From: a virus
Length of the DNA stretch: 44,081 bases
Virus record (IMG/VR): IMGVR_UViG_3300029258_003339
Span: 1-44,081 of that record
Direction: 5' to 3' (one strand)
Below the pieces are notes generated by a model that searched no databases, had not been told where the DNA came from, and worked only from the letters and a program-made list of their open reading frames with translations. The position numbers and the translations under genes are program-made. Every line of letters starts with the position of its first letter. Positions within the stretch are counted from its first letter, which is position 1. Positions 1-17,500 of the stretch are shown in pieces.

Positions 1-357
1 TATAGAACGACAATAGTTAGTGGCATAAGTGATCCAGGAATATATATAATATATGCCACTTGTTCTGGGTTTACAACTAACACAGAAGAATTAATTGTAA
101 ATCCAGAAAGCATATATGAAGTAACTAAACAAACACAGAACTATAATGTTTCTGTGGAGGATGTTGTTAGGACCGGCGGTCCGACTGCATCACAAATAGT
201 TAGGAATGTTCCCGAGGGGAAAACAGATTATATAATTACAAGAATAAAAGCGAATGATGCTTCAGATTGGTCTAGCCCTACGAGTTCAGGAAATATTTAT
301 GCTTGGTACCATAGTACATCAGATAATTTACCATATAAAATGGGGAGTGAATTTTAA
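1..357 (+). CDS. C-terminal part of a phage structural protein (5' end outside window)
   Basis: The frame is open from the first base to a TAA at 355-357, so this is the last 118 residues of a longer protein. An ATG-like start at 154 is not needed, because the frame reads through it from upstream. The sequence is rich in Thr, Ser, Asn and Tyr with alternating hydrophobic residues, as in beta-sandwich virion proteins. The end (residues with DWSSPTSS and AWYHSTSD) resembles fibronectin- or Ig-like fibre domains. No family could be named. Its stop codon overlaps the ATG of the homing endonuclease gene that follows. Its place upstream of the connector genes fits a head decoration, neck or fibre protein, which is an inference from position only. 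Confidence 0.7.
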   Translation, partial: YRTTIVSGISDPGIYIIYATCSGFTTNTEELIVNPESIYEVTKQTQNYNVSVEDVVRTGGPTASQIVRNVPEGKTDYIITRIKANDASDWSSPTSSGNIYAWYHSTSDNLPYKMGSEF

Positions 358-1172
358 TGAAAATATTTGGAATAATATATAAAGTGACAAATATAGTTAA
401 TGGGAAAATTTATATAGGACAAACTATACAGACTTTAAAATATAGAAGAAACGCCCATTTAATTGATAAGCGTAATTGTTATTTTCATAATGCTTTAAGT
501 AAATATGGTAAAAAGAATTTTGAATGGGTTATTTTAGAGCATTGTAGTTCTAAGGAAGAACTTGATGAGATGGAGTTTCATTATATTAAACAATATAAAA
601 GTAATTTTAAACAATATGGTTATAATATGACTTTAGGTGGTGAAGGTACATTAGGTATAAAAAGATCTAAAGAATATAGATTGAAGCAATCAATAGCGCA
701 ATCTGGCAAAACAGTGCCTATTGAAGTACGTAAGAAAATTTCTAGATCTATGATGGGCTCAAAGAATCATTTTTATGGTAAAAAACATTCTTTGGAGACT
801 AGACAATTAATATCAATTAAAAATAAAGGTAAGGCACATCCACAGACTGAAGAAGTTAAGAAAAAGATTTCTCAAGCCAAGAAAGGTATTAGTAGATCAC
901 CAGAAACTATACGTAAAATGTCTGAAAATACTCTTGGTGATAAGCACTGGAGGGCTGGTATGTTTGTTATAACGACTCCGAAAAATGAAGAATTTGTGAT
1001 AAAAGGGTTAAATCATTTTTGTAGATTATATAATAAAGACATTTTACATAGTTCTAATCTTATAAATGTAGCCAACGGGAAACGAAGACAACATAAAGGT
1101 TATAAGTGTAGATATTATAATAGAGAATTAGATTATAATTTACATTATTGGGAGTGTAATTGTGAATATTAA
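357..1172 (+). CDS. GIY-YIG homing endonuclease, free-standing, with NUMOD-type repeats
   Basis: This 271-aa protein begins with a GIY-YIG nuclease domain (about residues 4-95): GIIYKVTN, then KIYIGQT, an Arg-rich helix start (LKYRR) and the segment EMEFHYIKQY holding the catalytic Glu, followed by GYNMTLGGEG. The middle (about 100-195) has several NUMOD3-like DNA-binding helices of the form S.E.R.K.S....G. The C-terminal 60 residues have a second DNA-binding module ending QHKGYKCRYY. Such enzymes cut intronless or vacant alleles and spread their own gene. The ATG overlaps the stop of the preceding gene by one base, and its tail overlaps the next start by 11 nt. It is closely related to the gene at 3846-4472. 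It is not inside an intron, because the flanking genes look complete. Confidence 0.92.
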   Translation: MKIFGIIYKVTNIVNGKIYIGQTIQTLKYRRNAHLIDKRNCYFHNALSKYGKKNFEWVILEHCSSKEELDEMEFHYIKQYKSNFKQYGYNMTLGGEGTLGIKRSKEYRLKQSIAQSGKTVPIEVRKKISRSMMGSKNHFYGKKHSLETRQLISIKNKGKAHPQTEEVKKKISQAKKGISRSPETIRKMSENTLGDKHWRAGMFVITTPKNEEFVIKGLNHFCRLYNKDILHSSNLINVANGKRRQHKGYKCRYYNRELDYNLHYWECNCEY

Positions 1173-1605
1173 GTTTTTATCATCTGCTGGTTATGATTTA
1201 TTTTGTGAACCTACTACAGGATCTGGTATTATAAGTGGTGGGTATGTGGATATAGAGCCGGGATTTCAAATGATAAGTTTGCCAGTGACTAACGGATATT
1301 GGGATACCACAACTAGTGGTCACATACATGAGACAAGTATAAAAGCAACAGTTTATAATTATATTGTTCAACAAGTAGAACATGTTTATGGTGTGCCGGG
1401 GAAGAATATGATAGAAGTTTTTAACACATTGATAGGTGGTAATAGTAATTATTGGAATTTTGCTGTTGGTTTTACCGATCCAGGTTCACCACATAATTTC
1501 CAATTATCATATTATGATTCTGAAGCCGATGATTATGAATATACAGGATTTTTTATAAAATCTATACATCCTACAAGTTTTAAGATACAATGGGGTGAAA
1601 TTTAA
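1162..1605 (+). CDS. Hypothetical virion structural protein, 147 aa
   Basis: The gene starts at a GTG inside the end of the upstream endonuclease gene, with a GGGAGTG Shine-Dalgarno-like site just before it, and ends with a TAA whose last A is the first base of the next ATG. The protein is predicted mostly beta-structured and ends in an aromatic-rich stretch (GFFIKSIHPTSFKIQWGEI). No signal peptide or membrane segment is seen. I do not recognise a named family. Tight coupling to the PKD-domain gene downstream suggests both belong to the same surface structure (fibre, collar or capsid decoration). The function is inferred only from context. Confidence 0.75.
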   Translation: MNIKFLSSAGYDLFCEPTTGSGIISGGYVDIEPGFQMISLPVTNGYWDTTTSGHIHETSIKATVYNYIVQQVEHVYGVPGKNMIEVFNTLIGGNSNYWNFAVGFTDPGSPHNFQLSYYDSEADDYEYTGFFIKSIHPTSFKIQWGEI

Positions 1606-3845
1606 TGGCTGTTAACATAACATTTACAGGTGATATTTATAATACCGTAGGAATTAAATTTTCTGGAAGTGAAGTAAGTTACCAAGCTTATTTTAAACAA
1701 GAAAATGTTAGTAGTTCTTCGTCAACTTGGAGTAATTATAGAACTTCAATATTAGGACAATATAATTTTAATTTAGCTGATGGAGATTTACTTGGTACAG
1801 AAGGAAATGCTGGAAGTGGTGATAAAGTTGTAATTGTATTTTGGAGAACAGGAAGTGATAGGAATGCTGATTGTTTAACGTTGACAGAATGGTCAGCTTT
1901 TGAAGTTATTTTAGGAACTGGGCCTGGTATGTCAAGTTCAGCTTTGTATGTAAATGATGTTCAGATAAAAACAAATATAGCACCAGATTTACATTGGACA
2001 TTTCCAGTTCAAGGAGCACCACATTATGTAAATACGCCTTATGGTGCAAATAATACAAGCGAAGATGAGCATTCATGGGATTGGTCAGGAACTACAATGT
2101 ACCATTGGTACTCAAAATATAGTCAGACAATTAATTATGTAAATAGAATTAATAATAGTGTATATGATTGGGATGACAGCACTACTACTACAGGAATTCA
2201 AGATTATGATGGAAGCCATCAATGGTCAAGTCCTGGGATATATGATGTTGAATTGGTGGTTGAGGATGAATGTGGATTGACAGCAACTGGAACTGAGCAG
2301 ATACAAATTTATTGGCATCCACCAGGTTGTGGTATAACAATGTATCCATCAGATCCAGATCCTAATGATGTTATATATTTTAAATATACAGGAACTGATA
2401 CTGATAGCACAATAGATTATATAGAATGGATAATAAACGATGGTGCTACAACAACCACAACAAGCGGTGCAAGTGGTGATAATATTTATCATACCGAGGG
2501 GTTAGGTACATCTTGGTGTGGGACATCAGCTTCCGGAGGCGCATTTACTAATTCTGGTAGTCATTTAGTAGAAATTATATTACATTGGAATGATGGTTTT
2601 GATGACCAGACAACAGATTGTAATGACACTTTTACACAAGGATTATTTACAGGACCAACGGTTTCTTTTTCACAAGATCCATTTCCTGCTCCAGTTGGTA
2701 GCGGTATAAAGTTTACTAATACTTCTATTAATACCGATAGGGTAGGATTAGGATTGCCAGATTGTAAAGAATATACATGGACATTTACGGATGGTGGAGT
2801 TCCGACGGTTTATTCGGATAAACCTTATAGCTATGAGTTAGAAGTTGTTCCAACATCTACTGATTGTCAAGTGGAATTATGTGCACAGTGGAGTGATGGT
2901 TTTACCACACAAGAAACATGTGAATCAGCTGGAGTTCCATTTTTGCCTTACGTAACTATTACACCAGAGGATTGTTATTATAATTTGAATGTTGTAGGAA
3001 CTTCAAACGATGGAACTGTAAGTGGTTATAGTTGGACGATAGCATCAGGTACGAGTGAAACAGGGCCTTGGACAGAAATTTGGACAACGCCAACTGGAAT
3101 TGAACAAAATGATAAAAAAGTTTGTTTTACAAGCACAGGGTGGTATAAAGCAACAGGGTATGTTTACGGTGGCGGAACATTAAGTGATGATGAAACTATA
3201 TTCATCACAGAAGTTTGTCCAGCTACTATTAGCGGTGCAGTTGATATTATTTGGAACGGAACTGGTATATTAGATACAGGAGGAGATTGGACACATTCTG
3301 GTTATGGCACGGAAACAACAGCGTCTAAGCATGCTGGTACTAATGGTTTGGATATGACTGGAATGACGAAAAGTGATATAACATATTTTACAGCTTCATC
3401 AAATTTAGATGTTAGTGATTATGATATGTTGACTTTTTGGATTAATATAAGGGATATACAGTCTAATAAAAATATTCAGGTTTCATTATATGAAGCCGGC
3501 GGAGATTGGCACAGCCTTTATTTAAGTAATTATATCAATCTTTATGATAATCACGAAGTGTGGAGAAAAGTTTATATACCATTAAGTGATTTCGGCATAA
3601 GTTCTAATATTATAAATGAATTAAGATTTGTACCAACTGGGAATATTGATATATGGCTCGATGATATACATGTTAGTATGGGAACTATTATATCTGTGGC
3701 TGTCTGTGAACCAAGTATGTATGGAACCGAGTGGGGTAAATTAGATAGAACTGGAAAAGAAATTAAACCAACCATGAGGGCAAATGTGGATGTAGTGCCA
3801 AGTGCGCGGGTAATAAACACTTATCCATTACCGAGGAATTTATAA
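1605..3845 (+). CDS. Large surface protein with PKD/Ig-like domains and a C-terminal jelly-roll-like domain
   Basis: This 746-aa protein has several repeated beta-sandwich domains. One is PKD-like at about residues 185-235 (WSSPGIYDVELVVEDECG). Divergent copies follow at about 250-345, 350-440 and 450-540, each with a turn like HWNDGFDDQT or QWSDGFTTQE and paired cysteines. From about 545 to 700 there is a segment like a carbohydrate-binding jelly roll (LDVSDYDMLTFWINIRD, then VYIPLSDFG and DIWLDDIHVS). PKD and jelly-roll domains are typical of glycan- or cell-surface-binding appendages. The gene sits before the connector genes, where capsid decoration or neck fibres are often encoded. It is bracketed by two homing endonuclease genes. 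The binding target cannot be read from the sequence. Confidence 0.8.
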   Translation: MAVNITFTGDIYNTVGIKFSGSEVSYQAYFKQENVSSSSSTWSNYRTSILGQYNFNLADGDLLGTEGNAGSGDKVVIVFWRTGSDRNADCLTLTEWSAFEVILGTGPGMSSSALYVNDVQIKTNIAPDLHWTFPVQGAPHYVNTPYGANNTSEDEHSWDWSGTTMYHWYSKYSQTINYVNRINNSVYDWDDSTTTTGIQDYDGSHQWSSPGIYDVELVVEDECGLTATGTEQIQIYWHPPGCGITMYPSDPDPNDVIYFKYTGTDTDSTIDYIEWIINDGATTTTTSGASGDNIYHTEGLGTSWCGTSASGGAFTNSGSHLVEIILHWNDGFDDQTTDCNDTFTQGLFTGPTVSFSQDPFPAPVGSGIKFTNTSINTDRVGLGLPDCKEYTWTFTDGGVPTVYSDKPYSYELEVVPTSTDCQVELCAQWSDGFTTQETCESAGVPFLPYVTITPEDCYYNLNVVGTSNDGTVSGYSWTIASGTSETGPWTEIWTTPTGIEQNDKKVCFTSTGWYKATGYVYGGGTLSDDETIFITEVCPATISGAVDIIWNGTGILDTGGDWTHSGYGTETTASKHAGTNGLDMTGMTKSDITYFTASSNLDVSDYDMLTFWINIRDIQSNKNIQVSLYEAGGDWHSLYLSNYINLYDNHEVWRKVYIPLSDFGISSNIINELRFVPTGNIDIWLDDIHVSMGTIISVAVCEPSMYGTEWGKLDRTGKEIKPTMRANVDVVPSARVINTYPLPRNL

Positions 3846-4472
3846 ATGATTATATATAAAGTAACAAATAAAGTCAATGGAAAAATTTATATAGGACAAA
3901 CAGTTTCTAATTTAAAACATAGAATTAGCCAGCATTTTTGTGCAAAAAAATCTTATTTTCATAATGCTTTACATAAGTATGGTCGTGAGAATTTTGAATG
4001 GAAAATTATAGAATATTGTGAATCAAAAGAAGAGATGAATGAAATGGAATTTCATTATATTAAACAATATAATAGTGTAGAAGATGGTTACAACCTTACT
4101 TATGGTGGTGAAGGTAATTATGGTCATAAATTTAACAAAGCATTTTGTAAAAAACAATCTGATTTAAAGAAGGCTTTATATAAAAGTGGTTGGAAACACC
4201 CTATGTTAGGTAGAAATCATACTAAAGAATCTATAAAGAAAATGTCAAAAGCAGTTTCAGGTAAAAGACACAACAGATATGGTGTTGTGGGTCCTGAAAA
4301 TCCAGCATCTAAAGAATTTATTATAACAGATCCTTTAGGTCGAGAATTTAAAATAAAAGGGTTGAAATATTTTTGTGAAAATAATAATTTACAATTTACA
4401 GTTATGTCTATGTGTGCAAGAGGATTAAGACCTCAACACAAAGGATATAAATGTAAATATTTGGAGGAATAA
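3846..4472 (+). CDS. GIY-YIG homing endonuclease, second copy
   Basis: This 208-aa protein is a shorter relative of the 357-1172 product. The N-terminal nuclease domain has IIYKVTN, KIYIGQT, LKHRI and EMEFHYIKQY, nearly matching the first copy, then a similar GYNLTYGGEG. It has fewer NUMOD3-like repeats (about residues 95-145) and the same type of C-terminal module (FKIKGLKYFC, QHKGYKCKY). The ATG follows directly on the TAA of the PKD-domain gene, and the next gene begins one base after its stop, so it is inserted exactly at a gene boundary. Divergence in the middle, with conserved ends, suggests duplication followed by change of target specificity. Confidence 0.92.
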   Translation: MIIYKVTNKVNGKIYIGQTVSNLKHRISQHFCAKKSYFHNALHKYGRENFEWKIIEYCESKEEMNEMEFHYIKQYNSVEDGYNLTYGGEGNYGHKFNKAFCKKQSDLKKALYKSGWKHPMLGRNHTKESIKKMSKAVSGKRHNRYGVVGPENPASKEFIITDPLGREFKIKGLKYFCENNNLQFTVMSMCARGLRPQHKGYKCKYLEE

Positions 4473-4473
4473 T

Positions 4474-5430
4474 ATGTTGAACATCACATTTACAGTTGCT
4501 GATTTATCAGCAGTGATGCAAATTTATGACAGGATAGAAATAAGGAGATATACTGGTACAGGTATACCATCAGCCCCGGTGGATTTTACAGAAGGATACA
4601 CGACTATAAGTGGTACTGATGTAATAAGTAGTCGTAATAATGTTTCAGATGTTGAATTAGTGTCTCCATATACACAATATTATTTTACTGATCCAGATGG
4701 AGATGCAAATGATTGGTATATATCTAGGTATTATGATGATGATACAGGCAGTGTTAGTGGTTGGGCAGATCCTATTTTAGGTGAACCTCATGATATTTAT
4801 TATAATCCGCTTTTCCGAAGAGAAATAGAATTTGGCACTGCAGATCAGCTTGTTATAGATAGAATAAGATTATTAATAGGTGATCCTGTTGGTTTAAGAA
4901 GAGAATATGGCGAAGAAGCTGCTTCATCTATTCATCCTGATAATAGAACATATGAAATGGATGAAAAAGGATGGCCGGCAAGTGTAAATATGGGAGGTAT
5001 ACAGTATAATGATGCAACTGATCCTTCTGTAAATGGTTATAAATTTTTAAGGTTTCAAAATGCTGATATATCTATTACAACCTGGTCAGGATGCACGGAG
5101 TATGGAGTTGATTTGTGGTATTACACATTTAGACACAGTGATAGAGAAATTATGTATGCTTATGATAATTGTCCACCCCCACCCCCGCTGACAACGGATA
5201 CCGCTACTCCGGAAGCATACATGTTGAAGACAGCTTATGAATTATTATATTCAGAATTTTGGGAGGATACTGGAGAGGATGGAGCGGTTATTAGGGATGA
5301 GGGAACGCTTTATGATCCATCCCCCGGCCTTGATAATAGAAGACAGTTGTTAAAAGCTTTAAAGGATAGATTAGATGAAGTGGTGCAGACATTAACTTTA
5401 ACTGGGATAGAAGGTGTGTTAATAGACTAA
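4474..5430 (+). CDS. Putative head-tail connector (adaptor-like) protein with N-terminal beta domain
   Basis: This 318-aa protein has two parts. Residues 1-105 form a beta-rich domain (YDRIEIRRYTG, YYFTDPDGDANDWYISRYY) resembling fibronectin-like repeats. From about residue 120 the character changes: DQLVIDRIRLLIGDPVGL, a Pro-rich loop (CPPPPPL), then a helical end (TPEAYMLKTAYELLYSEF, RRQLLKALKDRLDEVVQTL). The RIRxLIGD segment and helical bundle are typical of adaptor proteins that bind the portal ring. Position before a zinc-containing protein, another small protein, a terminator-like protein and the tail tube fits the usual neck gene order. The assignment rests on order and fold character, not a certain family match. 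Confidence 0.6.
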   Translation: MLNITFTVADLSAVMQIYDRIEIRRYTGTGIPSAPVDFTEGYTTISGTDVISSRNNVSDVELVSPYTQYYFTDPDGDANDWYISRYYDDDTGSVSGWADPILGEPHDIYYNPLFRREIEFGTADQLVIDRIRLLIGDPVGLRREYGEEAASSIHPDNRTYEMDEKGWPASVNMGGIQYNDATDPSVNGYKFLRFQNADISITTWSGCTEYGVDLWYYTFRHSDREIMYAYDNCPPPPPLTTDTATPEAYMLKTAYELLYSEFWEDTGEDGAVIRDEGTLYDPSPGLDNRRQLLKALKDRLDEVVQTLTLTGIEGVLID

Positions 5431-6079: not shown

Positions 6080-6700
6080 ATGAAAAAAGCAGTAAACAAA
6101 GTTAAAAGCGGTGTAAAAAACGAAATACTTTCGAAACTATCTGAAGTTAAGGAAGAAGTGATAAGAATTTTAATGGAGACTTATGATGTTATGTTGGTTG
6201 TGACAGACAGGAAAAGTAAAACTAACCCGCAAGATCCTAAATACAGAGATGAGTTTGAAAAAAGATTATGGGATTTTGAGTATATAAATGATAAAGGGGA
6301 TAAAGTAGGGTTTAAATTACCAGATATGGAGACTTTTGATTTTAGCGGAAATGTTATGCATGTTATAGAACAGATTTTAGAAGGAACGGCAGGTATATAT
6401 GTTGAGGTAAATGCTGAAGATTATGAAGCAATGTTTGGTAAAAGGATAATATCCAGGGAACCTTTAGACACAAGTGTTCCAAAAAAAGAATTAATTTATT
6501 TAATGCGATATAATAATGTGGTTAGAGCAGCTGAAAAAAGAGTTTTTGGCAGAAATAATTATTTGGTTAGATATCCATTTTCCAACACGCCCCCAATACC
6601 TTTACTAGATGCAGCGGATCAATTTGTAAAGGGTAATATGGATAGATGGATGGATGAAGCTGTTGATAATGCCGTGAAAAAGGCTAAAAGAGGTATGTAA
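6080..6700 (+). CDS. Putative neck/tail-completion protein, 206 aa
   Basis: The ATG at 6080 follows the previous stop by one base and has AAGGA 11 nt upstream; it is preferred over a TTG at 6044 that lies inside the previous gene and has no better site. The protein opens with a basic amphipathic helix (MKKAVNKVKSGVKNEILSKL), then a mixed alpha/beta part with a region naming several acidic loops, and ends in a charged helix (WMDEAVDNAVKKAKRGM). No family recognised with certainty. In many siphoviruses the gene between stopper and terminator encodes an HK97 gp10-like neck protein, and length and helical content fit that. The role is inferred from order. Confidence 0.55.
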   Translation: MKKAVNKVKSGVKNEILSKLSEVKEEVIRILMETYDVMLVVTDRKSKTNPQDPKYRDEFEKRLWDFEYINDKGDKVGFKLPDMETFDFSGNVMHVIEQILEGTAGIYVEVNAEDYEAMFGKRIISREPLDTSVPKKELIYLMRYNNVVRAAEKRVFGRNNYLVRYPFSNTPPIPLLDAADQFVKGNMDRWMDEAVDNAVKKAKRGM

Positions 6701-6702
6701 AT

Positions 6703-7602
6703 ATGACTTATGAAATGAAGAATATTAGGAAAGAGGATACATCTTTATATTATTATTTAAAACATGTGGTTTTAGAAGAAGCTTCATGTGATGAAGATAA
6801 TGTTTATGTTTATGAAGCTTTAACAGCTATGGCTCCATCTCCCACTGAGCGCGGGAGGGGTTGGGTGTATATAGATACTTGTTCAGGAACTACTACAATT
6901 TGTAATGTAGATGCTAATGGTAATCAATTAACATCTTATCCTGTGGCAAGTGGAATTAAGGAACAATCTAATAGAATTAAAGTCTATGATTCAAATTTAA
7001 ATGTTATAAATGAAAATGAATATTTAATAGATTATATAGATGGAAGAGTCGTTACTTCTGGGACAGTTAGTCCTGCATATATCGATTATTATTGGTATTA
7101 TATAAGTTTAGTTGATGAATGGGCGGCTATTTCAGCAGCCGATCCGCCGGTTGTGGTTATAGATTTAATGGGTACAGATAAAACAGGATACCAATTAGGA
7201 CCAGGAAGACGTGTTGTGAGGAAAGTAGATATTCATATATTTGCATCAGATCCAGCAGAACGAAATGATGTTGTTGATACAATATATGATGGGTTGTATT
7301 TAAAATGTGCACCACTTTATGATTTTCCAAATGGAACAATGTTAGAATATGATGGTACATGGTATGGAAGAAAGAGTAATATGAATAAACTAACCACGTT
7401 GTTTGATAACAGTACGTTAGATTATTTAGGTACTAATATTAATGCTACTATTGGTGGGATTGTACAATTTGAAAATGTGACTTCAAGACATATTAATTTA
7501 CCATTAATTATGACAAGAAGTCAAGATGAAGTGTTATTAAGCGACCTTAATGCATATAGGTCAAAAATAAGTTTTGATTTGGTATATTATACATATATTT
7601 AA
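6703..7602 (+). CDS. Putative tail terminator/tail completion protein
   Basis: This 299-aa protein has a C-terminal half beginning VVVIDLMGTDKTGYQLGPG, followed by VRKVDIHIFASDPAERNDVV and DTIYDGL. That combination, a beta strand followed by a helix with an ER(D/N)D turn, is characteristic of tail terminator proteins that cap the tail tube next to the head. The N-terminal 140 residues (EALTAMAPSPTERGRG, NVINENEYLIDYIDGRV) are a beta domain extra to the usual short terminator proteins. It is the last gene before the leader of the tail tube gene, matching the canonical order terminator then tube. No terminator hairpin of note follows it. Confidence 0.6.
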   Translation: MTYEMKNIRKEDTSLYYYLKHVVLEEASCDEDNVYVYEALTAMAPSPTERGRGWVYIDTCSGTTTICNVDANGNQLTSYPVASGIKEQSNRIKVYDSNLNVINENEYLIDYIDGRVVTSGTVSPAYIDYYWYYISLVDEWAAISAADPPVVVIDLMGTDKTGYQLGPGRRVVRKVDIHIFASDPAERNDVVDTIYDGLYLKCAPLYDFPNGTMLEYDGTWYGRKSNMNKLTTLFDNSTLDYLGTNINATIGGIVQFENVTSRHINLPLIMTRSQDEVLLSDLNAYRSKISFDLVYYTYI

Positions 7603-14500: not shown

Positions 14501-17500
14501 GTGCTGCCCCTAGATTTGCTACGTATAAAACTGGTTTTGAACAGTTATATGATATAATGGCTGAAAGACGTATATTCGAGGAAAAAGGTGATTATGAAGT
14601 TGCTAGGTTAATAGAAAATATAGGTTTTAGACCAGAGAAAACAGGACGTTTAAAAGAGGCTAAAAAGTTAGCACAAGATTTATTTACAAAAATGTCTGCA
14701 TCTGGACAAGATGAGTTTATTTTAGAACAATATAAAGAAGCTGCTACCATGGTTGGGGCTAAGAGGCAACGTGCTGGTGTAGGCACAATAGCTGAATTTG
14801 AGAAAAAAACAAATGAAGCTGTGGAAAATTTCAAGAAAACCCAACAAGATGTAGTTGAATTTATGAAGTATATGGAAGATTTTGGTATTTCTGCATATGA
14901 TGTAATTAAATCTATGGAGACTATAAAATTTGAAAATGTTTATGACATCTATAGAAAAGTTATTAAAGGTACAGAGGAAGGTTTAAAACCACTGCAGCAG
15001 TTAGCATCTGCACCAAATTGGGACAGCGCTATTAGAGGATATGAACAAGCTCTTAGATCAGTTGAACAATTATTACCTGTAATAGAACCCGGTAGAGTGA
15101 AACGTGGTAAGCATTATGAGAGCACATTAACAACAATGTTTCAAACTTCTCCTCTGTGGAAAATATCACGTGAAGGAAAACCATCTCAATATATTAGAGG
15201 TGGGGCTAGAGGTGTAGGGCCAGAGGAACAGAAGAAAAGGATACAAGATATAAATATGAATTTGAGGGATTATTTACAGGAGGTTGGTGAATTATATAAA
15301 GCTGGCCAAGAAGTGACCCCACAAATGGTGAAAAGAAGAGAAAAAGTAAAACTTCCTGCTGGAGTTGCAACTATTTCTACTTTAGGACCGCCGGAGGCTC
15401 AAGCCGCTTCTTATGAAGAATATCGTCCTGAAGCTAGATTACCAGCAGAACAAAAATTCCTTAAATCTTTAGATGCTACAGCTATAAAAATGTATACCGA
15501 AAAACTTCTTGAACAAGCGCCTTTTGGTGAATTCGGTCGTATGGGTAGAAATATAGCTAATGTTACTGCTGCTATGAGTTCTTTTGCTGAAGGAGAAGTT
15601 AAAGGTATAGAGGGTTTAACTACGCAATTCCCATCAATGAGGACCACAAAAGAAAGAGATATTATAGCTGCAGGTAGATATGGTCAAACTGGTTATGGAT
15701 TTAATGTTTTGGCAGAGCTTAAACATTCCGCCGCAACTTTTGAAGATCAAATTATTATTTCAGGTAAATTAGCAGATGCTTTAACACAAGCCGTTAGTAA
15801 TTTAATCAAACCTTCTGCTGCTGGTCGTTTAGGAGCGCCTCTTGGATCTAAAGGAGCAGTTACACCTATGGAGGAGAAGACTGTCAGGGATGTGACTAAT
15901 AAAGAAATAAGAGATGCGGCAAGAGAATTCATGGAAATATTAGGTGTTCCTGAAAAGTATAAAAAGGAAGCTGATAAAGCTTTAATAGAAGATGTAAGGA
16001 ATTTGATAACAACAGTTAGAGGTGAAAGTGTAGAAGTACAAAAAGGTAAATTAGTAGAAGTATTTATGTCTAATTTTGCCAGAAAATTCGTTACAAGATA
16101 TGGAACTAAAGGTGTTAGTGTCAAAGCAGCTGGTCCAGAAGGTTTAGGTGTAGCAGAGATTCCTAAGAGTATGGGTCAATTAGCTAAAGAAATAGTAGAA
16201 TTTATAGAAAAGAATGAAAGTTTAATGAAAAAAGCTTCTCAATTTGCTGCGCCTTCTATTAAAAAAGAAGGTTTTACTAAGTTGAAAAGTGATTTAGTAG
16301 CATCTGGTAATAAATTCATGTTAAGTTTGTTCAGTGATGTCACTAACGAAATGGCACAAAGTTTAGGTGTAGAAGAAGAAATTGAGAAACAAGCGGAAAT
16401 TTATAAAAAATTTACTAGAATACTTAGAGATGCACTTGGTGTGGAGGCTTTACCTAAAGATATAGCTGGTATAGGAAAATTAAAGGAATTATATACAGAA
16501 AAAGTTGGTGGTAAATTAGCTGCTGAAAAACCTATAGAAATAAGGATAAGTTCTTCTGGTATAGCTAAGAGAGGTTTGCAAGCTGAATTTCTTGAAAGTA
16601 TAATGGGTAATATAGTTGGTGCTGAGGCCGGTGGTATTACCACAGTGCAACCAACAATACCTGCTGATGTTATGAAGCAACTTCTAGGTACAGGAGAACA
16701 AAGAGGACTGCTTGCTAAATATTCAAAAGCTTTAGGTTATGTTGGAGCGCCAAAACCAGAGGAAGAAATAAGGAAAGAATTATTTGAAAAATATATAGCT
16801 GAAGGAAAAGAACCTGAAAAAGCTAAGATATTAGCTGAGAAAGGTGCTGCTCTTGAGGCTATGTCTAATTATTATACTAAAATACGAGATGAATATGGAA
16901 AAGCTGCTAAGTCTATTGTAGGACCTAAATTCGTTCAGATTGTTGAAGAACCTCATCAGGTTGAAGGTTGGAGCCCTAGAGATGTAGAACAATTAGCTAG
17001 GGGAGGAAAACTTAATGTACCTGCCATATCTGCTTATTCAACTATATTTGGTGAACAGTCAGCTTTAATGAAACAAATTAAAGGTGCCGGAGCAGAAACT
17101 TTTGAATCTAAAAAGCTTTTTGAATACATTAAAGCATTACAAGCTTTTAACACATCTAAAGAAGGGCAAGAGTTGGCTCAGAAATTAATGAGTGCTTCTG
17201 AGCTTGTAGATTTAGCTGAATTAAGGCCTTTCACAGAACGTACAGGAACGTTTTTTAATGAGCAAGATGTAAAAAGAAGTTTAAAAAGTACTATTTTAGA
17301 TATAGAAAAATATAAAACCGCTTTGACTGTACAAATACCCAAAGCAAGAGGTGCAGCCCCCGGAGAACTTGAGAGAGAGCCTTTTTATATTCCTGGACCT
17401 TTAGCTCGACAAACTTATCCAGAGGAACTAGTTGCTGGTGAAATGGGGATGGATAAAATAGCCAGAAGATTACAGGATGTAATTAATAGAGCTATAGAAG

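Follow-up and report, generated by a model that had tools for sequence, protein, structure and literature searches.

The closest described counterparts of the locus analysed here are the seg genes of T4, for which intergenic insertion, co-conversion and marker exclusion have been described (PMC2988022). As presented in that source, these genes combine a GIY-YIG nuclease with a separate DNA-binding part, are seated between conserved genes, often have no promoter of their own and show co-conversion of adjoining sequence as a known side effect. The two homing endonuclease genes (HEGs) of the present locus, E1 and E2, resemble the seg genes in domain make-up and seat and may share the other traits. 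Unlike them, E1 and E2 have a middle part with NUMOD3 stretches, a C-terminal HKGYKC module and nearly gap-free junctions, and they come from an uncultured lineage represented by sequence only. Genes split by HEG insertion are also described in the same source, including mobE in Aeh1 nrdA and mobA in T4 gene 60. A further described arrangement is the HEG island (Barth, Dunham and Seed 2023, PMC10448857), in which HEGs lie at both ends of essential genes and whose cargo is reported there to be >90% identical in nucleotides between dissimilar phages. Mobilisation of a block by a bracketing HEG pair, which the first-pass annotation had proposed for this locus, is an idea already published under that name.

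The window, that is, the whole stretch of DNA analysed, is a virus record of 44,081 bases with the plus-strand gene order A (cut)-E1-B-C-E2-D-F-G-H-I onward, where the letters A to I are labels assigned in this analysis. It contains the following features:

1..357, plus strand: gene A, C-terminal 118 amino acids, truncated by the contig start and adjoining E1 on the left
344..347, plus strand: Shine-Dalgarno-like GGAG within the 3' end of A, 9 nt upstream of the E1 start (motif match only)
357..1172, plus strand: E1, free-standing GIY-YIG homing endonuclease of 271 amino acids with two NUMOD3 stretches, the HKGYKC C-terminal module and a short extension
1151..1154, plus strand: Shine-Dalgarno-like GGAG inside the 3' end of E1, 7 nt before the B start (motif match only)
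1162..1605, plus strand: gene B, 147 amino acids, no assigned family, the divergence outlier in the window
1173..1815, plus strand: tract of anomalous divergence in the window, covering B and approximately the first 70 residues of C, from sliding z-scores; right end approximate
1605..3845, plus strand: gene C, 746 amino acids, adhesin-like, with a beta-rich N-terminus, a PKD domain, more beta domains, a carbohydrate-binding-module fold and a disordered tail (predicted)
1974..2315, plus strand: PKD-like domain of C, residues 124-237 (structure match 4aqo; Pfam PKD_4 below cut-off)
3222..3692, plus strand: carbohydrate-binding-module-like jelly roll of C, residues 540-696 (structure matches 7t7y and 2c24_B)
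3696..3845, plus strand: C-terminal tail of C, residues 698-746, common to the mini gene of relatives
3834..3837, plus strand: Shine-Dalgarno-like AGGA within the 3' end of C, 8 nt upstream of the E2 start (motif match only)
3846..4472, plus strand: E2, free-standing GIY-YIG homing endonuclease of 208 amino acids with one NUMOD3 stretch
4463..4467, plus strand: Shine-Dalgarno-like GGAGG inside the last codons of E2, 6 nt before the D start (motif match only)
4474..5430, plus strand: gene D, 318 amino acids, adjoining E2 on the right, conserved within the lineage, no family

The two ORFs with homing-endonuclease domains at 357-1172 and 3846-4472, recognised from the start, are confirmed by agreeing Pfam and PHROG matches. 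Both score over the Pfam cut-offs for GIY-YIG (8.5e-13 for E1, 3.4e-14 for E2) and NUMOD3, and both match PHROG homing-endonuclease families (phrog_314 with 1.8e-43 for E1 and 1.1e-40 for E2). They are the only GIY-YIG matches in the whole record at E<=0.001, and their G+C content (0.278 and 0.270, respectively) is below the record value of 0.345. Residues Y8, Y19, R30, E73 and N90 (E1 numbering) are kept in all 14 aligned HEGs, and the conserved Arg, Glu and Asn named as catalytic for GIY-YIG enzymes in PMC2988022 appear to map onto these E1 positions. The two ORFs are free-standing, as B, C and D are full-length compared to their relatives and A (about 168-179 amino acids in full-length relatives) is shortened only by the contig start. 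E1 and E2 fit every decisively testable feature of free-standing GIY-YIG HEGs and have a predicted nuclease activity; they are a known kind of mobile gene, unusually well resolved through its relatives.

The location of each endonuclease gene at a stop/start junction, also part of the original description, holds to the base: the E1 start falls within the A stop codon (TAATG), E1 overlaps B by 11 nt, the C stop is followed by the E2 start without a gap, and one base separates the E2 stop from the D start. The GIY-YIG domains had been called near-identical, which is too strong for 60 identical residues of 89 (67%), and this value rules out E1 and E2 as near-identical twins. The description of their DNA-binding middles as different was correct for the middle part itself, with 17 of 52 residues identical and two NUMOD3 stretches in E1 versus one in E2, but not for the C-terminal module IKGL..FC..QHKGYKC, which is common to both proteins (25 of 52). 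No Rfam families were found in the window at the gathering score.

The bracketed genes had been annotated as a pair of surface-protein genes, a description that appears likely for C from its predicted folds. The structural model of C has a mean pLDDT of 82.7 and a pTM of 0.46, so that its domains are surer than their mutual arrangement. Re-examination of the Foldseek matches revealed similarity of residues 540-696 to 7t7y (Z 16.4, rmsd 2.5, 143 aligned) and 2c24_B (Z 14.4), with matches to carbohydrate-binding module families 30 and 11 at Z about 14. Residues 124-237 match the PKD domain 4aqo (Z 12.6, rmsd 1.5, 85 aligned, 32% identity), for which the Pfam PKD_4 score (2.7e-5) is below the family cut-off, and the tail (residues 695-746) is modelled with a pLDDT under 50. 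Based on the PKD and carbohydrate-binding-module folds in this model, C is likely to be an adhesin-like surface protein with PKD and carbohydrate-binding parts. The best of five models of B has a mean pLDDT of 79.0 (range 52.6-79.0, the other four at 53-63) and gave no PDB match in Foldseek at E<=0.001, nor does B match a Pfam or PHROG family at E<=0.1. Gene A has no PHROG match at E<=0.1, and its Pfam matches are all below cut-off.

Relatives of the locus were found by scans with D, with C, with an alignment of D and with an alignment of I. These scans yielded 80 loci including the window, which were grouped by hand into 51 representative contigs of an uncultured lineage (designated by L numbers). 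In 50,697 GenBank phage records, no protein match was found for C or D at 1e-5 or for I at 1e-3. At the DNA level, three GenBank phage records match the region 1162-5430, at the E2 start only, with one match beginning 14 bases earlier, in the end of C. The only hint of a host comes from L160, which lies within a contig of a gammaproteobacterial MAG and may be mis-binned.

The order A-B-C-D-F-G-H-I is kept in the 18 genomes with intact B and C (A was not recognised in L110). Ten of the 18 have no recognised HEG at A/B, B/C or C/D (L003, L008, L015, L019, L021, L109, L126, L130, L131, and L110 with A not recognised). A search for the same junctions without the endonuclease, as had been recommended in the first-pass annotation, was accordingly successful: A/B and C/D both occur empty in several relatives with syntenic B and C, for example L003 and L008. 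The A/B plus C/D bracket is present in one of the 18 genomes, the window itself. Among the 51 representatives, GIY-YIG HEGs occupy the A/B junction of 2 of 17 genomes (and A/D of 1 of 3), the C/D junction of 4 of 23 and the D/F junction of 3 of 42; F/G (0 of 40), G/H (0 of 40) and H/I (0 of 49) have none. At B/C they are present in 3 of 18 (L006, L114 and L118), plus L010 at its contig start. HEGs were recognised using two profiles (GIY-YIG and a CapR/Vsr-like family), so that other types may be missed in these counts; members of the CapR/Vsr-like profile are present at D/F in 4 of 42 genomes and at H/I in 13 of 49, and the B/C junction of L016 holds another HEG type, in the form of a protein matching CapR and HNH. 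Four consecutive junctions (A/B, B/C, C/D and D/F) hold related HEGs in varying combinations, and L112 and L118, with 95% identity across their F, G, H and I proteins, have no HEG position in common.

Empty junctions also include sites with scars. The B/C junction of L015 retains the sequence MTFGIIYK, and in L109 MKNFGI is joined to KKFKCRYAEE, in both cases with none of 60 shuffles as good (the long B/C spacer of L012 was left out of these shuffles), and these scars show that HEGs have been lost. Two other candidates were not counted as scars. The D/F spacer of L114 scored against an HEG end above each of its 60 shuffles, but it holds a 74-aa ORF that is cysteine-rich and unrelated to HEGs, and the 46-nt D/F spacer of L112 was equalled by 3 of 60 shuffles.

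Across 136 pairs drawn from 17 genomes, the identity of C rises and falls with that of A, D, F, G, H and I (correlation r 0.64-0.86). For B, the correlation with the other genes is low (r 0.02-0.34; 0.20-0.56 without the window), largely because the window B is an outlier. The eight-gene comparison comprised 17 genomes and the per-gene comparisons up to 18, with L010, which has no B in its contig, excluded; L010 entered only the later C tree, where L131 was left out as a long branch, and most trees were quick searches. The mean B residual of the window is -19 points versus -3.3 to +5.1 in the 17 others, and its B end branch is 2.28 versus a median of 0.35. Of 31 alignment columns that are invariant among the other B proteins, the window breaks 7 (0-2 for the others); for C, it breaks 7 of 72 such columns, second to L131 (11 of 76). 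A sliding scan, from which L110 was excluded, confined the window anomaly to B and approximately the first 70 residues of C, leaving A, D and the rest of C unremarkable; low scores for the window also occur in two short stretches of H. The anomaly adjoins E1, and there is none on either side of E2. For the window C beyond residue 100, the expected placement with L012 and L114 was not rejected (p 0.115).

C evolves broadly in step with its flanks, with one conflict. L138 and L010 fall with L109 and L021 in the tree of C (95/94 for the set) but with L130 in that of the flanking genes (99). Compared to expectation, the C identity of L138 is 12 points higher with L021, 9 points higher with L109 and 8 points lower with L130, and the L138 B is closest to those of L126, L021 and L109. 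Therefore, B and C of the L138 lineage, or of its neighbours, have probably been exchanged at some time. L138 carries an A/B HEG and no C/D HEG; in L010, HEGs lie upstream of C and at D/F. Replacement of the bracketed genes as a linked set, the second pattern that the first-pass annotation recommended looking for, is suggested in this form, with B and C of L138 and C of L010 misplaced relative to the flanks, but in the window only B and the C start are anomalous.

We consider it very likely that E1 and E2 are individually mobile HEGs, which come and go beside a variable surface-protein locus, and that their bracketing of B and C is incidental, because related enzymes settle at four junctions in changing combinations and get lost. 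Both are members of a family of GIY-YIG/NUMOD3 HEGs housed in a cluster of co-directional structural genes, in a lineage of uncultured tailed phages. An HEG of this family would cut an HEG-free co-infecting relative near its junction, and repair would copy the HEG in seamlessly between the stop and the next start. Translation of the HEG would start from a ribosome-binding site in the 3' end of the gene before it, and the last codons of the HEG would supply such a site for the displaced downstream gene. Shine-Dalgarno-like motifs are present upstream of 10 of the 14 GIY-YIG HEGs. Among genes that follow an HEG, such a motif precedes 2 of 2 B genes, 3 of 5 C genes, 5 of 5 D genes and 2 of 5 F genes; some of these starts, e.g. 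those of C in L006 and F in L010, were set too early. At empty junctions, the counts are 14 of 16 for B, 12 of 14 for C, 15 of 15 for D and 13 of 15 for F. Repair would also drag along short neighbouring tracts (up to about 1 kb), which could replace parts of B, C or D. The lineage, with about 50 contigs from uncultured phages, offers a test case for how far free-standing HEGs remodel neighbouring genes.

Local conversion by single HEGs is plausible from the divergence beside some of them. The median identity of L112 and L118 is 84.5% over 186 overlapping 200-nt windows, and the windows below 70% comprise one run of ten (L112 3156-4244, ~1 kb) around the L118 B/C HEG and a single one at 14661-14860. 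Over the first 170 residues of C, L110 shares 66% identity with L112 and 52% with L118, which makes L118 the odd one. Between L112 and L118, identity in D drops to 73-75% over the final two full 150-nt windows, next to the D/F HEG of L118. No dip was found at the L112 C/D HEG (up to 100% identical), no clear dip at H/I, and none between L015 and L016, though L016 carries other-type HEGs at B/C and D/F; the L138 B is not unusually diverged despite the A/B HEG. For 15 insertions with 30 HEG-flanking sides, the mean z was -0.39 (permutation p 0.023), counting the unidentified B/C ORF of L012 and non-GIY HEGs as HEGs. Without the window, the mean z was -0.50 (p 0.006), and p was 0.028 without the window and L118 and 0.09 without the window, L118 and L012; the signal is modest, and the related genomes in it are not independent. 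The tract tests, as well as the test of the L009+L011+L013 grouping described below, were devised after seeing the data. Although this signal is mixed, the observations are better explained by individual homing with short co-conversion than by block transport by a pair.

The same tracts may also be read with the HEGs as passive neighbours, in which case the divergence of B and the C start would result from relaxed or diversifying selection on the adhesin-like locus, or from its ordinary recombination. This explanation is unlikely overall, though it retains some weight. It is consistent with the number of invariant B columns broken by the window, with a relaxed need for B in the window's close kin, which carry a mini gene only, and with the coincidence of the tract with B and the C N-terminus in both the window and the L112/L118 pair. 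Furthermore, L004 and L014 differ in A with no HEG between A and D. However, the right edge of the L112/L118 tract, where identity rises from 64% to 98% in about 200 nt, is more like a recombination edge, the odd genome of that comparison is the one bearing the B/C HEG, and flanks on the HEG side are on average more diverged. The tracts of the window and of L112/L118 have the same starting point, the A/B boundary, despite HEGs at different junctions, so that B together with the C start may form a separate unit. If the HEG-side tracts are confirmed as co-conversion, individually mobile HEGs would be a case of a selfish gene reshaping a probable host-recognition protein.

A separate question is the origin of the two enzymes. 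The HEG tree, which took in 40 of 81 outside HEG matches, is poorly resolved, with 5 of 48 inner branches starred. The three D/F HEGs cluster in this tree (1 change, a value that none of 500 shuffles reached; support only 76), as expected if each HEG lineage keeps its own site, and a single clade of A/B HEGs was not rejected (p 0.735), which leaves separate arrivals at one junction unproven. It is rather doubtful that E1 and E2 were derived from one another by a jump within this genome or its recent ancestors. Within the 14 HEGs, each of the two has its highest identity to the other (52%), with pS 0.50 and pN 0.33 (simple count, 208 codons), but the path from E1 is marginally shorter to the L118 B/C HEG (1.00 versus 1.04), and the E1+E2 pair was neither supported nor rejected by the AU test (p 0.844).

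The locus between A and D exists in several allelic forms. In L009, L011 and L013, the nearest kin of the window on flanking genes, B and C are replaced by a mini gene of 52-85 amino acids, in which a B-like start (matching the first ~16 residues of B) is joined to a C-like tail. A profile of the C tail detected the mini genes before D in L011 (1.3e-6), L013 (8e-5), L156 (1.4e-4), L160 (3.6e-4) and L009 (0.002), with weak matches in L120 (0.011) and L117 (0.064) and the best other ORF at 1.7; the small ORF before D in L152 was not picked up by this profile. A medium allele with the carbohydrate-binding part only is present in L014 and L149. Long, medium and mini alleles were assigned by hand, and the medium form of L004 is broken into pieces. 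Swapping of surface modules, as originally proposed, is supported to the extent that the locus has been exchanged or remodelled between mini, medium and long alleles, for which the flank tree requires at least four changes. No HEG pair matches these allele switches: L011, L013, L014 and L149 carry their mini or medium alleles with no HEG between A and D, and L009 has an A/B HEG and no HEG before D. An AU test on A, D and F rejected L009+L011+L013 as a clade (p 0.0016), so that the window and L009 differ by an allele switch. Its direction seems to lean to loss or replacement in the mini-gene genomes and not to recent import into the window, because common descent of the window C beyond residue 100 with L012 and L114 was not rejected. 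With close relatives carrying only the mini gene, the essentiality of B and C is doubtful.

The B/C boundary, where HEGs recur, separates two tags that the mini and medium alleles combine in one ORF. In this respect, it is similar to the mobE/nrdA and mobA/gene 60 splits as described in PMC2988022. Unlike in those cases, no unsplit long allele was found among the 18 genomes, and fission of B and C by HEG insertion is for this reason presented as a possibility. A broader interpretation makes HEGs the motor of adhesin diversity: a small gene consisting of a start tag and a tail tag would have gained carbohydrate-binding and PKD modules and been split at a homing site into B and C, with B and the C start later replaced by co-conversion. 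We regard this sequence of events as improbable; if true, homing at A/B, B/C and C/D by a selfish element would drive change in host recognition.

Least likely, and in our view very unlikely, is an HEG island, in which E1 and E2 jointly move B and C as cargo and the window B-C arrived as a block. Several observations are in line with it, including the mini gene in the nearest flank kin of the window, the rejected clade of these kin (by which the block was lost repeatedly, regained by the window or exchanged) and the joint presence or absence of E2 and the block in the window and L009. The conflict of the C and flank trees in L138 and L010, both with HEGs nearby, the affinity of the L138 B, which looks as if B and C had moved together, and the HEG pairs flanking C in L114 and C+D in L118, L010 and L016 also belong here. 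On the other hand, L138 has no C/D HEG, mini and medium alleles exist without any HEG between A and D, the window C beyond residue 100 is compatible with its place beside L012 and L114, and the anomaly of the window stops short of the E2 end. Mobilisation of the block by the pair, the central proposal of the first-pass annotation, is not supported: the junctions are empty, differently occupied or scarred in relatives keeping B and C, and C correlates with its flanks. No close (>90% identical) copy of the block was found by pattern scans of viral contigs or in GenBank phage records, and a pattern-based scan for a donor of the window B produced four matching stretches, none encoding a relative. 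Among 17 relatives, amino acid identity peaks at 44% for B and, beyond residue 70, at 53% for C, values that also rule out B-C as a conserved island.

On present evidence, the E1-E2 pair does not qualify as an HEG island. Unlike the islands described in PMC10448857, B and C are not highly identical between phages, with no cargo of >90% identity found in the collections searched (viral contigs by pattern scans, GenBank phage records), and only B and the C start look replaced in the window. Because the bracket dissolves on comparison with relatives, two bracketing HEGs alone are weak evidence for a mobile cassette. The locus nevertheless shares with the islands of that source the presence of HEGs on both sides of virion-type genes, found in the window at both ends of B+C, and a changeable set of HEGs in which different classes occupy the same sites, here at B/C (the CapR/HNH protein of L016) and at D/F (CapR/Vsr-like proteins in four genomes).

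Two related loci, L004 and L014, share a mean identity of 96% over genes F, G, H and I. The N-terminal half of gene A has 28% and 50% identity between them in 40-residue windows, and the remnant of the adhesin-like gene C has 81%. No homing endonuclease gene (HEG) is present at the A/B, B/C or C/D junctions of either locus. Since the two differ strongly without one at these three positions, exchange from A to D in this pair does not depend on a resident HEG. In L012, a 260-aa open reading frame (ORF) is seated at the B/C junction (6208-6990). It matched no Pfam family at E≤0.01 and shares 40% identity over 55 residues (E 0.004) with the NUMOD-like part of an HEG from L114, and may possibly represent an unrecognised HEG type.

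Gene I is interrupted in several loci. Rfam identified three tandem group I introns in I of L004 (10605-11442) and two in that of L014 (14802-15349). L022 contains a LAGLIDADG ORF immediately upstream of the recognised part of I, and L139 and L149 carry ORFs of 272-273 aa within the gene; the Rfam scan found no intron in these three loci. Among 49 representatives, a CapR/Vsr-like HEG lies directly upstream, at the H/I junction, in all five genomes with an interrupted I and in eight of the 44 others (Fisher p 6.7e-4, for genomes that are related and hence not independent). Two of these eight, L026 and L158, have an I gene that runs off the end of the contig. This co-occurrence is reminiscent of collaborative homing. 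One protein of this HEG family (L004, 8992-10416) has a Pfam Mom match in its C-terminal third (1.3e-10), with further matches to CapR, REase_MTES_1575 and Vsr.

In the window, gene H (6703-7602, plus strand) shows unusual divergence at about residues 51-90 (z -3.5 to -4.1 in the sliding scan), with no HEG close to the diverged stretch. The window also contains an 8,252-aa ORF at 11539-36297. A PhageMin_Tail match (PF10145, 3.4e-18) opens its second half, so this ORF probably encodes an extraordinarily long tape measure protein. The length of the tape measure protein usually sets that of the tail; if this rule holds here, a tail of about 1 micrometre or longer is implied.
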